From NCBI GenBank assembly GCA_014860225.1, contig JACZKE010000011.1:1-64000 (forward strand): a stretch of 64,000 nt of DNA. The letters run 5' to 3'. Shown here in pieces: positions 17,231-20,092 of this stretch (position 1 is its first letter; each line of letters starts with the position of its first letter). The translations under genes and the position numbers were made by a program. Source of the stretch: Desulfuromonadales bacterium (GTDB taxonomy: Bacteria > Desulfobacterota > Desulfuromonadia > Desulfuromonadales > BM103). Under the pieces are notes generated by a model. The model did not search any database. It was not told where the DNA came from and saw only the letters and a program-made list of their open reading frames with translations.

Positions 17231-17569
17231 TTATTTCAACCAGTCTTCATAAAGCTCAGCATTGAAACCGATGATGAAGCGGTCCTCGACACGACAGGTC
17301 GGGGCACGCAGATTGCCGCTCGGTCCCATCGCATGTTGCAAAATGGTATCCTTCGCGTCGGTCGCCGGGACAAAATGCAGTACCTTTTTGCCCTTGGCAA
17401 CGCTAATGCCGCTGGCCGTCTTTAATAGTCTCCAGGCAGCATCTTCGTCAAAACGGGATGTCTTCGCATCGACAACTTCCTCGATACTCACCTGCTTTTT
17501 CTCAAGAAACTCTTGAGCATTTTTACAGGACGTTCAGCCTTTACGCAGATATGCCCAGTCGATTTTCAT
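17231..17569 (-). CDS. ArsC-like (Spx/ArsC family) selenoprotein with in-frame UGA
   Basis: Read from the ATG at 17569 (GGAGG five bases upstream), the frame runs through a TGA at 17536-17534 to a TAA at 17231, giving 112 residues with selenocysteine at position 12. The context is LRKG-U-TSCKNAQEFLEK, a thioredoxin-fold UxxC redox motif at the place where relatives have CxxC. The rest (VAKGKKVLHFVP, MGPSGNLRAPTCRVEDRFIIGFN) matches the family annotated as ArsC-family (seleno)proteins. A SECIS-like hairpin follows the UGA. Ordinary gene calling would start at the GTG at 17491 and lose the active site. It is probably a thiol/selenol oxidoreductase; arsenate reduction is not implied. The Sec machinery is not in this window. 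Confidence 0.85.
17501..17536 (-). promoter_or_regulatory. SECIS-like element after the UGA selenocysteine codon
   Basis: On the minus strand, 16 bases after the UGA, a perfect 6-bp stem CTCAAG/CTTGAG encloses the loop AGTTT, which has a G near its 5' side. CCTG and CAGG can pair outside it. Position, size and the loop G and U agree with bacterial SECIS elements that recruit SelB. Confidence 0.7.
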
Positions 17570-17653
17570 GCCATCCTCCCGTACGTCTGTGGTCATCAAC
17601 AATATGTGAAAGTATACATCTTTGCAAAGAGTGTGCACCATGCACCCGGAGGT

Positions 17654-20092
17654 TCACCCCAACGTCAATATCTGGTCCGTTACCTCGGTAAAAGCCACAT
17701 CATGGCTGATCAAAAAGAGTTGATCGTACCAATGCTCGGTGACTTCTTCCTTGCCGACATCGATGGCGCGGAAAGCATGGGCCAGGTTTTCGCGACGGCT
17801 GGCGTCGAGATTCGAGGTCGGTTCGTCGAAGAAGGCGATGCGGGCATTGATGGTTTGCAACATCGCCAGGCGCAGCGCGACCACTGCACTCATGATCTGG
17901 CCACCCGAGAGTTGGTCATCGACCCGTTCGCGCAGCTCACCGTCGACCATATCGCGCAACACAATGCGGTAATCATCTCCCCACGCCAGTTCTTCGTCGA
18001 CCTCGGCAATGATGCGATAGATACGATTAGCCCGCTGGCTGATCTCCTCACGGAAGCGCTCCGAGAGATAGGCGGAGACGTTGCGGAAGACCCGGTTGCG
18101 CAGAAACTTGATCAGCTCATCCTTCTCTTTGTATGACTTGACCTGATTCTGTTTGGCCGCAATGTCTTTCTCGATCTGTTTGAGTTTATCGATCTCGGTG
18201 GCAAGGCGGGCAACATCAGCGGTCAACCCTTTAACCTTTTCCCCTGATGCTCCCATCGCTAGCCCCAGTTCGTCCTTCTGCTTGCGTAATGTTTCATGCT
18301 CTGCGGCGCTATACTCATTGGCCGCTTTGCTGTACGCCTCATTTTTGACAATCAACTCATCCTGCAACTGCTTGAAGAGTTTTTCGAAATTCTCAAGATC
18401 GGCCCGGCGTTGTGCCAACTCAGTGGCCTGCTTCTGGTTAGCAACATAAAGGTCCCTCTCTTTCTGATATTTAGTCTTGTCCTTGTCCGCCCCTTCAATA
18501 TCAGCTTGTAAGCGGCTGTAGGTCGCCAGAACCTTCTGTTTATCTGTGAACTGTTGCTGTACTGAGGCCTCTTCCTTTTGCAATACAACAAGGCTTTCAG
18601 CTTTTACCTCGTTGGCGATACGACGTTGTGAGAGTTTCTCAACCTGGACGTCCAGGCCTTTGAGCTTGACCGCAACTTCTTTGAGCTGATCGTTCGCATG
18701 GCTGGCTGCCATCTCTTCCTTTTCGAGCTTTTCTAAACCGCTGGTCTGGTGCTGACGTTCCTTATCCAGTGCTGAGAATTTAGTGGAGAAGACATCACCC
18801 GGCGGTTTTTCGGCTATATTGAGACAAGGCTCCTGAAAGAACGGGCAGATCCCTTCGGCGAGTTTCTCGCTCCCCTCTTCAAGTCCTGCACGACGCCCTT
18901 CGAGCTCCCCGAGTTGTTTGCGCACCCGATCAATGGCAGAGCGAATTTTCGGCAGACGCCCTGCTAACTCTTGCTGTTTTTCATCAATGTCCAGAGCTTT
19001 CCGGCTTTCGACAAGAGTTTGCTCTTCGGCGGCGATCTCTTCCCGTGCTTTTTCGATAGCTTGCGATTCGACTTTAAAGCGCTCACCAAGCCTGCCAACC
19101 TGGTTATTCAGGCCAGCGATCTCCTGCTCAAGCTGGCGCTGAATCTTGACCTGCTCATGCAACGCTATTAGCCGAGCTTCTGCCTGCTCGAAGGCTGTCT
19201 TTCCGAAGGCTGTCTCTAACGTAACCTTGTATGCCTGGTCCGCCTCGCTTACCAGTAGCTTCTGATTACTGATCTTCTCTTTGCCGTTATCAATACGCGC
19301 CTTGAGCGTGCCGATCTCGACTTCAAGGGCTTTGTAGTCCTGTTCGCGTTTATTGATATCGAACAACAGGGTTTCCAGCTCCTTGAGCTTCTGCTGCTGC
19401 ACCTTCAGCTCAGCTTCAGTCTCTTCAAGATTCTGTCTGGCTATCTTGTGTTCATCCTTTTTCGTCGGGAGTTCTGCCACTTGATCCTTAAGAGGTTCGA
19501 TCGCGCTTTCCAACGCGTCAACCTTCGCTTTGATGGCACTGGCCAAAATCTTGGTCTCATTGTAGGTCTTGCGCCAGGTATCGATGCCGAGAATCTCGTC
19601 AAACTTGTCACGGCGCCTGGCCGGTTGTTTGATCACAAAGGGGCCCAGAAATTCGTTCTGGAACGGGCCGATCACCAGTTCGAACTGCTCGGCAAGCGAG
19701 CGCCCGCTCTTAAGTCCAAGAAGTTCCTTCAGGCGCGCCTCGGTCTCCTTGCTGTCTTTGTGTTCCTCGACCTCGAAATAACCACCGACCTCTTTGGCCA
19801 GAAGCCACTTTGAGGGTGTGCCGACAGTTCGGCTGACACGATAACACTCATCATCCGTCAGTTGGAACACGACTGTAATTTCGCCTCTCTTCTCGCCGAT
19901 AGTGACAAAGCGGTCGACATTGCCGACAAAGCTCTGCGCATCGACCCCGAACAGGGCATATCCAATCGCCTCAAAAATGGTGCTTTTGCCGACACCGTTC
20001 GGGCCTGAGAGAACGTTGATGCCCGTCGAAAAGGTGAGTTCGGTATCCCTGTGCGACTTGATGTTCTTCAGATGTATGGAGAGGATCTGCAT
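17654..20092 (-). CDS. sbcC: SbcC/Rad50-like DNA repair ATPase
   Basis: The 812-residue ATPase has Walker A in SGPNGVGKSTIFEA near residue 33, a long two-armed coiled coil (about 190-700), signature LSGGQIMSAVVALRLAM and Walker B in IAFFDEPTSNLDASRREN. With SbcD it forms a nuclease that trims DNA ends and hairpins. The hook between the coils reads CPFFQEPC, with six residues between the Cys pair, whereas the Rad50 zinc hook is CxxC. Its ATG shares a base with the stop of sbcD (TGATG), so the two are coupled. It is shorter than enterobacterial SbcC (about 1050 residues) and closer to archaeal Rad50 in size. Confidence 0.9.
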   Translation of the reverse strand: MQILSIHLKNIKSHRDTELTFSTGINVLSGPNGVGKSTIFEAIGYALFGVDAQSFVGNVDRFVTIGEKRGEITVVFQLTDDECYRVSRTVGTPSKWLLAKEVGGYFEVEEHKDSKETEARLKELLGLKSGRSLAEQFELVIGPFQNEFLGPFVIKQPARRRDKFDEILGIDTWRKTYNETKILASAIKAKVDALESAIEPLKDQVAELPTKKDEHKIARQNLEETEAELKVQQQKLKELETLLFDINKREQDYKALEVEIGTLKARIDNGKEKISNQKLLVSEADQAYKVTLETAFGKTAFEQAEARLIALHEQVKIQRQLEQEIAGLNNQVGRLGERFKVESQAIEKAREEIAAEEQTLVESRKALDIDEKQQELAGRLPKIRSAIDRVRKQLGELEGRRAGLEEGSEKLAEGICPFFQEPCLNIAEKPPGDVFSTKFSALDKERQHQTSGLEKLEKEEMAASHANDQLKEVAVKLKGLDVQVEKLSQRRIANEVKAESLVVLQKEEASVQQQFTDKQKVLATYSRLQADIEGADKDKTKYQKERDLYVANQKQATELAQRRADLENFEKLFKQLQDELIVKNEAYSKAANEYSAAEHETLRKQKDELGLAMGASGEKVKGLTADVARLATEIDKLKQIEKDIAAKQNQVKSYKEKDELIKFLRNRVFRNVSAYLSERFREEISQRANRIYRIIAEVDEELAWGDDYRIVLRDMVDGELRERVDDQLSGGQIMSAVVALRLAMLQTINARIAFFDEPTSNLDASRRENLAHAFRAIDVGKEEVTEHWYDQLFLISHDVAFTEVTDQILTLG

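Follow-up and report, generated by a model that had tools for sequence, protein, structure and literature searches.

Selenoproteins related to arsenate reductase

Proteins that resemble arsenate reductases and carry selenocysteine (Sec) have been listed in several surveys of bacterial selenoproteins. In the available part of PMC13188914, the family NF041106 is listed as "Arsenate reductase-like protein", a UxxC selenoprotein, and the functions of most such proteins are described there as largely uncharacterised. The entry "Arsenate reductase-like protein, UxxC" is also found in the accessible text of PMC9312934. ArsC-like selenoproteins are named in Desulfotalea and Desulfuromonas in the accessible part of PMC1794560, and ArsC families of the UxxS and UxxC kinds are reported from ocean data in that of PMC2398784. 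Planctomycete selenoproteins are treated in PMC4807772, the available text of which does not name an NF041106-type protein. The literature search returned no paper with fixed phrases such as "ArsC-like selenoprotein", and no paper joining Spx, ArsC, selenoprotein and selenocysteine.

A frame that runs through a TGA codon

The window is the whole stretch of DNA that was analyzed, 64,000 nucleotides from the start of contig JACZKE010000011.1 of a Desulfuromonadales bacterium. The sequence-only reading of this stretch had claimed that the frame of a short ORF continues upstream through a single TGA to an ATG with a good Shine-Dalgarno sequence, that the TGA falls on the first active-site residue of a UxxC motif (KG-U-TSC), and that both sides of it are in frame and family-like. 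The features concerned are the following.

17231..17569, minus strand: complete coding sequence of an ArsC family (seleno)protein, 112 codons (TGA as Sec) plus stop, from the translation and the NF041106 match
17534..17536, minus strand: in-frame TGA (residue 12) that opens the UxxC motif, from the translation; homologues have Sec, Cys or Asp here
17525..17527, minus strand: codon of Cys15, probably the resolving residue of UxxC
17573..17580, minus strand: ribosome-binding site GGGAGGAT, read directly; it ends 3 bases, and its GGGAGG part 5 bases, before the ATG

This observation was confirmed. Translation of 17569-17231 on the minus strand with TGA as U gave 112 residues (MKIDWAYLRKGUTSCKN...) followed by a stop, with the TGA as residue 12, and direct reading of the sequence placed GGGAGGATGGC before the ATG of the 112-codon frame. 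The protein matched the NCBIfam model NF041106 (ArsC_rel_Se_1, "ArsC family (seleno)protein") at 125.4 bits against a cut-off of 85, residues 3-107 aligning with profile positions 1-107. Members of this family are expected to begin UxxC with Sec or Cys, and the window gene has its TGA there, at codon 12. All of the 72 distinct homologues aligned matched the same model; the alignment left out L049 (which is the window), L096 (which runs off its contig), L062 (whose frame is lost) and six duplicate proteins. On the window protein, the Pfam ArsC model PF03960 reached 12.5 bits, below its cut-off of 24, and TIGR00014 (ArsC) was absent among the profile matches up to E 1. No match to the family gene was found in the plasmid collection.

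Residue at the TGA position in relatives

In the class of the window, the family was present in 54 of 277 genomes with 56 matches, every one of which had TGA at this codon (one also contained a TAG). The codon was likewise TGA in all 81 rows made up of 43 loci from named genomes, the 37 loci L018-L054 and the window; repeats are included, since the window is among the 80 loci and is also counted in its own right. The 43 loci were found with back-translated patterns and include records titled Acidobacteria, Planctomycetales, Desulfuromonas and Desulfobulbaceae. One of the loci (L062) loses its frame seven residues after the TGA (19 residues in), and another (L096) stops at the contig end.

Two further phyla were searched. 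In that of L091 (titled Bryobacter; Acidobacteria), the 28 matches above the cut-off among 396 genomes had one TGA each, and so did the nine ranking directly beneath the cut-off (37 best matches in all). From E 8e-13 on the matches were mostly free of stops, with nine more carrying TGA and one TAG. Eleven low-scoring loci (L171-L181) comprised eight without stops, with Cys at the aligned place, and one with TGA (L178); two (L174 and L180) were not recovered by the profile. With their ArsC/Spx motifs, the low-scoring stop-free loci belong elsewhere in the wider superfamily. The phylum of L095 (titled Planctomycetales) gave 81 matches above the cut-off in 80 of 392 genomes, 70 with TGA and 11 without a stop. 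Ten of these 11 had TGC or TGT (Cys; TGC in L210) and one had GAC (Asp, L207), and the genome of the latter also holds a TGA copy of the family gene. When the three groups were pooled (56/56, 28/28 and 70/81), TGA occupied the position in 154 of the 165 matches above the cut-off.

The sequence-only reading had expected homologues to show Cys or Sec at this codon. Sec is present in most and Cys in ten, and the Asp of L207, a single row, formally departs from the expectation. Such an exchange of Sec for Cys at one codon is a hallmark of Sec residues with a redox role. On a quickly built tree of about 112 residues in 144 rows (133 with Sec, 10 with Cys and 1 with Asp), at least five switches between the two states, Sec and non-Sec, were needed; support for the smallest mixed groups was 64 to 86. 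Since the tree is unrooted, it is silent on whether Sec or non-Sec is older. L138 and L139 were left out of the tree and of the pair counts given below.

These data also bear on the reading of the TGA as a real stop, by which the locus would hold a pseudogene or a sequencing error, or a gene in two pieces that restarts at an internal GTG. With TGA as stop, the mechanical ORF listing indeed shows the downstream 86-codon frame alone (17491-17231), starting at a GTG inside the longer frame. Against this, many distant species have TGA at this codon, with both flanks conserved, and some relatives have Cys codons in its place, so that the probability of a real stop is practically negligible. Judged from these sequences, 17569-17231 on the minus strand is very probably one selenoprotein gene in which the UGA of codon 12 is read as selenocysteine, and another case of a gene truncated when TGA is read as a stop.

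Some members were observed to vary in other ways. Ser replaces the second Cys of UxxC in L077 and L113, giving UxxS. A genome of the window's genus (G016), which is in 640 contigs with 7% contamination, carries the family gene three times, each time with TGA. The TGA of L178 (genome G533) lies in a different UxxC frame, which keeps L-R-R-P and, with C for TGA, reaches 92.9 bits on the Spx/MgsR model against a cut-off of 75.05; L178 is a possible Spx-type selenoprotein.

According to the available part of PMC1794560, Cys forms dominate most selenoprotein families. NF041106 is unlike these in that most of its members in the sampled groups have Sec. This predominance is perhaps new, and is a point worth following.

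Selenocysteine machinery of the genome

The genome of the window (3.94 Mb, 68 contigs) contains the machinery for Sec, the absence of which would have spoken against the sequence-only reading. A tRNA-Sec was found at 74.9 bits with the anticodon tca (UCA), together with selA (617.7 bits), selB (394.4 bits) and selD (362.4 bits). The last three adjoin each other on one contig (C41:5788-10103; L009, L010 and L098). The selD gene has one in-frame TGA and is therefore probably itself a selenoprotein gene.

The co-occurrence of the family with SelA was also analyzed. In the window's class, a SelA match was obtained in 47 of the 54 family genomes (weak in one, G073, 1.4e-9), compared with 237 of 277 overall, and the seven family genomes without a match consist of 240 or more contigs each. 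Co-occurrence was rejected as uninformative in this class because 237 of 277 genomes have SelA anyway. In the phylum of L091, a SelA match was present in all 37 genomes with a TGA form of the family (the best match in one of them, G695, being 8e-65) versus 239 of 359 others (Fisher p 8.7e-7, not corrected for kinship). Among the genomes reached from the named loci carrying the family gene (27 of 43 loci tried), SelA was found in 26 of 27. Taken from sequence comparison, the predicted insertion of Sec at codon 12 is very well supported.

The hairpin downstream of the TGA

A SECIS-like hairpin with a GU loop, starting 16 bases past the TGA, had been part of the sequence-only reading, and it was found at that place.

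17501..17517, minus strand: SECIS-like hairpin with a 7-bp stem (17517-17511 with 17507-17501) and the loop GUU (17510-17508), from folding and pair counts

A bacterial SECIS hairpin follows the UGA closely and has a G near the start of its apical loop, a rule with which 17517-17501 and its GUU loop agree. By itself, the hairpin of the window is modest. The folding energy of the 60-nt region is -14.7 kcal/mol (z -1.90). Equal or better folding was obtained in 8 of 200 shuffles and, for the hairpin region, in 1.4% of 2000 synonymous recodings.

Pairing was then counted across the family at a fixed place, patterned after the hairpin of the window, with eight stem pairs formed by offsets 18-25 with 36-29 from the T of the TGA. 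The 123 distinct Sec rows averaged 5.89 of 8 pairs, compared with 4.89 (sd 0.083) when synonymous codons were redrawn from the family codon pool and 4.19 when they were redrawn uniformly. When one arm was slid by 1 to 3 bases, the Sec rows dropped to 2.42-4.43 pairs. Seven or eight pairs were formed in 71 of the 123 rows, and in all 71 the loop begins with G; the other 52 had fewer than seven. Several stem pairs vary on both sides among the Sec rows, and pair 20/34, for instance, is T-A in 52, G-C in 25 and C-G in 7 of the 123.

Nine Cys rows gave 2.44 pairs at the fixed place versus 5.89 for all Sec rows, a contrast that is overstated by the mixing of phyla. Since all of the Cys rows belong to the planctomycete phylum, the fair contrast is the one within it, where 25 Sec rows gave 4.12 pairs and 10 Cys rows 2.4 (p 0.035). 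When the position of the stem was left free, with loops of 3 to 6 and contiguous pairs counted, the values within this phylum were 6.04 and 3.6 for the same numbers of rows (p 0.0005). With this shifting stem, 129 Sec rows reached 6.74 contiguous pairs versus 4.6 (sd 0.093) in synonymous redraws, and the 3.6 of the Cys rows was not above their own redraws (3.95, sd 0.27). Within the planctomycete phylum, however placed, the stem is no longer than 3 or 4 pairs in five of the 25 Sec rows. The hairpin is thus a good candidate for the SECIS, the exact place or shape of which differs in some members.

Two other measures were discarded. Total folding energy gave no separation as a SECIS test, with a median z of -1.29 and -0.79 in two Sec sets versus -1.51 in the Cys set. 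The Rfam model SECIS_1 had no match in the window's genome; this search carries no weight because none of the 14 control genomes matched either. At the gathering score, no Rfam family was found in the whole window.

Fold, conserved residues and proposed activity

The AlphaFold2 model, built from the 72-row alignment, had a pLDDT of 95.8 and a pTM of 0.88. The best solved relative by sequence was Spx (3l78, 2e-05), and Spx was also at the top of the Foldseek list (6e-05) and of the VIA-align list (3ihq, Z 9.1, rmsd 2.6 over 88 residues), in which the first few entries are tied. These were followed in VIA-align by 2m46, deposited as a putative arsenate reductase (Z 8.5), YffB (8.2) and E. coli ArsC (6.4). 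A shared fold is no demonstration of function.

Twelve positions are invariant in the 72 rows (W5, Y7, R9, G11, U12, A35, G82, G85, L87, R88, P90 and G101), and Cys15 is present in 71. Pro90 is preceded by Ala89 in 71 of 72, and the later step is G101-F/Y102 in all 72. The aligned ArsC chains have one Arg immediately N-terminal to the conserved Pro and a second one further on, in an R-P step; we take these to be the catalytic Arg94 and Arg107. Cys92 of the window protein, conserved in 1 of 72, probably plays no part.

These positions weigh on the idea of a selenocysteine arsenate reductase of the glutaredoxin-coupled ArsC type, with Sec12 as the arsenate-binding nucleophile. The fold is the same (the E. 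coli ArsC chains at Z 6.4, and 2m46, at 8.5, tied with Spx), the nucleophile stands at the same place and NF041106 is named as ArsC-related. However, the first marker Arg is replaced by Ala (71/72) and the later R-P by G-F or G-Y (72/72), and the E. coli ArsC chains are absent from the sequence matches up to E 1, which makes this activity very unlikely. No ars gene was noticed in the neighbourhood either. Of the designation "ArsC-like" in the sequence-only reading, the fold stands and the function name does not, as the marker arginines of ArsC are not conserved; apart from that name, its interpretation is supported.

The similarity to Spx could instead point to a redox-controlled regulator of RNA polymerase with a selenium-sulfur bond as its switch. 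Besides the place of Spx at the top of the sequence and fold lists, both proteins have a redox pair near the N-terminus with two residues in between, and 56 of the 72 members match the Spx/MgsR model (TIGR01617) at E 0.001. Nevertheless, the window protein scores 21.8 bits on this model, below the cut-off of 75.05, the best of the 72 members reaches E 1.2e-07 (about 32 bits), and the middle part is a beta-hairpin in the AlphaFold2 model. A role as an Spx-like regulator is thus quite unlikely.

Since the fold is nearest to Spx and YffB and the marker arginines of ArsC are absent, the protein is probably a thiol/selenol redoxin and not an arsenate reductase. Sequence and model together make it likely that it works as a thiol/selenol oxidoreductase. 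The product would be a selenoprotein of 112 residues with the Spx/ArsC/glutaredoxin fold, probably cytosolic, in the synthesis of which SelB and tRNA-Sec would decode the UGA of codon 12 as selenocysteine, directed by the downstream hairpin. Thiol/selenol exchange through U12 and C15 may resemble that of glutaredoxin or YffB: Sec12 would attack a disulfide or another oxidised substrate, Cys15 of the same UxxC would resolve the bond, and a cellular thiol system would re-reduce the redoxin. Arg9, Arg88 and Pro90 may shape the pocket and help to activate Sec12.

Gene neighbourhood

The window gene lies between two genes, that on one side being presumably of the glycogen-debranching type and that on the other side the following.

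17654..20092, minus strand: upstream neighbour of the family gene, 812 codons, from the ORF listing; presumably an SbcC-like ATPase

No neighbour recurs family-wide, either in 80 loci plus the window, many with short flanks, or in another 40 loci for which the flanks were wider. The neighbourhood was rejected as a guide to function, as the recurring neighbours sit in closely related loci or belong, by their look, to large common families at varying distances.

Three smaller sets of loci have neighbours connected with iron-sulfur or thiol chemistry. Among 83 loci plus the window, six isc genes were found near the family gene in five (L189, L192, L198, L202 and L207), all of the planctomycete phylum, where the family gene is followed by a six-gene cluster that we take to be iscR, iscS, iscU, iscA, hscB and hscA. 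The residue at the Sec position in these loci is Cys in L189 and L198, Sec in L192 and L202, and Asp in L207. An IscA-like gene (31-33% identical), which keeps the conserved Cys-Gly-Cys-Gly end, lies some 330 to 520 bases downstream of the family gene, and facing it, in four loci with Proteobacteria titles (L066, L069, L072 and L097). A gene for a thiol-disulfide protein, presumably of the DCC type, adjoins the family gene in L057, L183 and L201. In the same search, no isc, IscA-like or DCC-type gene was found near the family gene of the window, and these neighbours were kept out of the best explanation because the loci are too few.

The iron-sulfur neighbours nevertheless arise in two unrelated groups, that with the planctomycete isc cluster and that with the facing IscA-like gene, which is perhaps new. 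No mention of the isc neighbourhood or of the Sec/Cys/Asp set was found in the accessible passages of the papers cited above. An extended proposal would be that the family arose as a Sec-first redoxin, its Cys forms being late and repeated replacements, and that it sustains iron-sulfur cluster assembly by using its selenol to reduce persulfides or disulfides for IscS, IscU or A-type carriers. As a whole this is unlikely; even so, the isc neighbourhood could serve as a first functional lead for an uncharacterised family and is, like the predominance of Sec, worth following. For the contribution of selenium, a natural comparison is offered by the planctomycete loci, where the gene in the same syntenic position beside the isc operon has Sec, Cys or Asp.

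Comparison with known systems

With Spx/MgsR (TIGR01617) and YffB, the family shares the fold, the N-terminal redox pair, the L-R-x-P motif and the G-F-N step, and differs in having R-A-P where those have R-R-P, and in its Sec. With ArsC (TIGR00014), it shares the fold and the place of the nucleophile; ArsC has Arg before the Pro and the Arg of the later R-P, whereas the family has Ala and lacks the later Arg. The selenoprotein form of ArsC is, moreover, UxxS and the family UxxC, as given in the accessible part of PMC13188914. The ArsC-like selenoprotein of Desulfotalea psychrophila and the "distant ArsC homolog" of Desulfuromonas acetoxidans, described in the available text of PMC1794560, come from the same broad bacterial group and are likened to the window protein by that description; they likely belong to the same family. 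The closest system is NF041106 itself. The window protein has the same UxxC place with TGA at the codon, and nothing of substance differs. The window gene is therefore a further member of this selenoprotein family, which, together with its Sec, is already in print.
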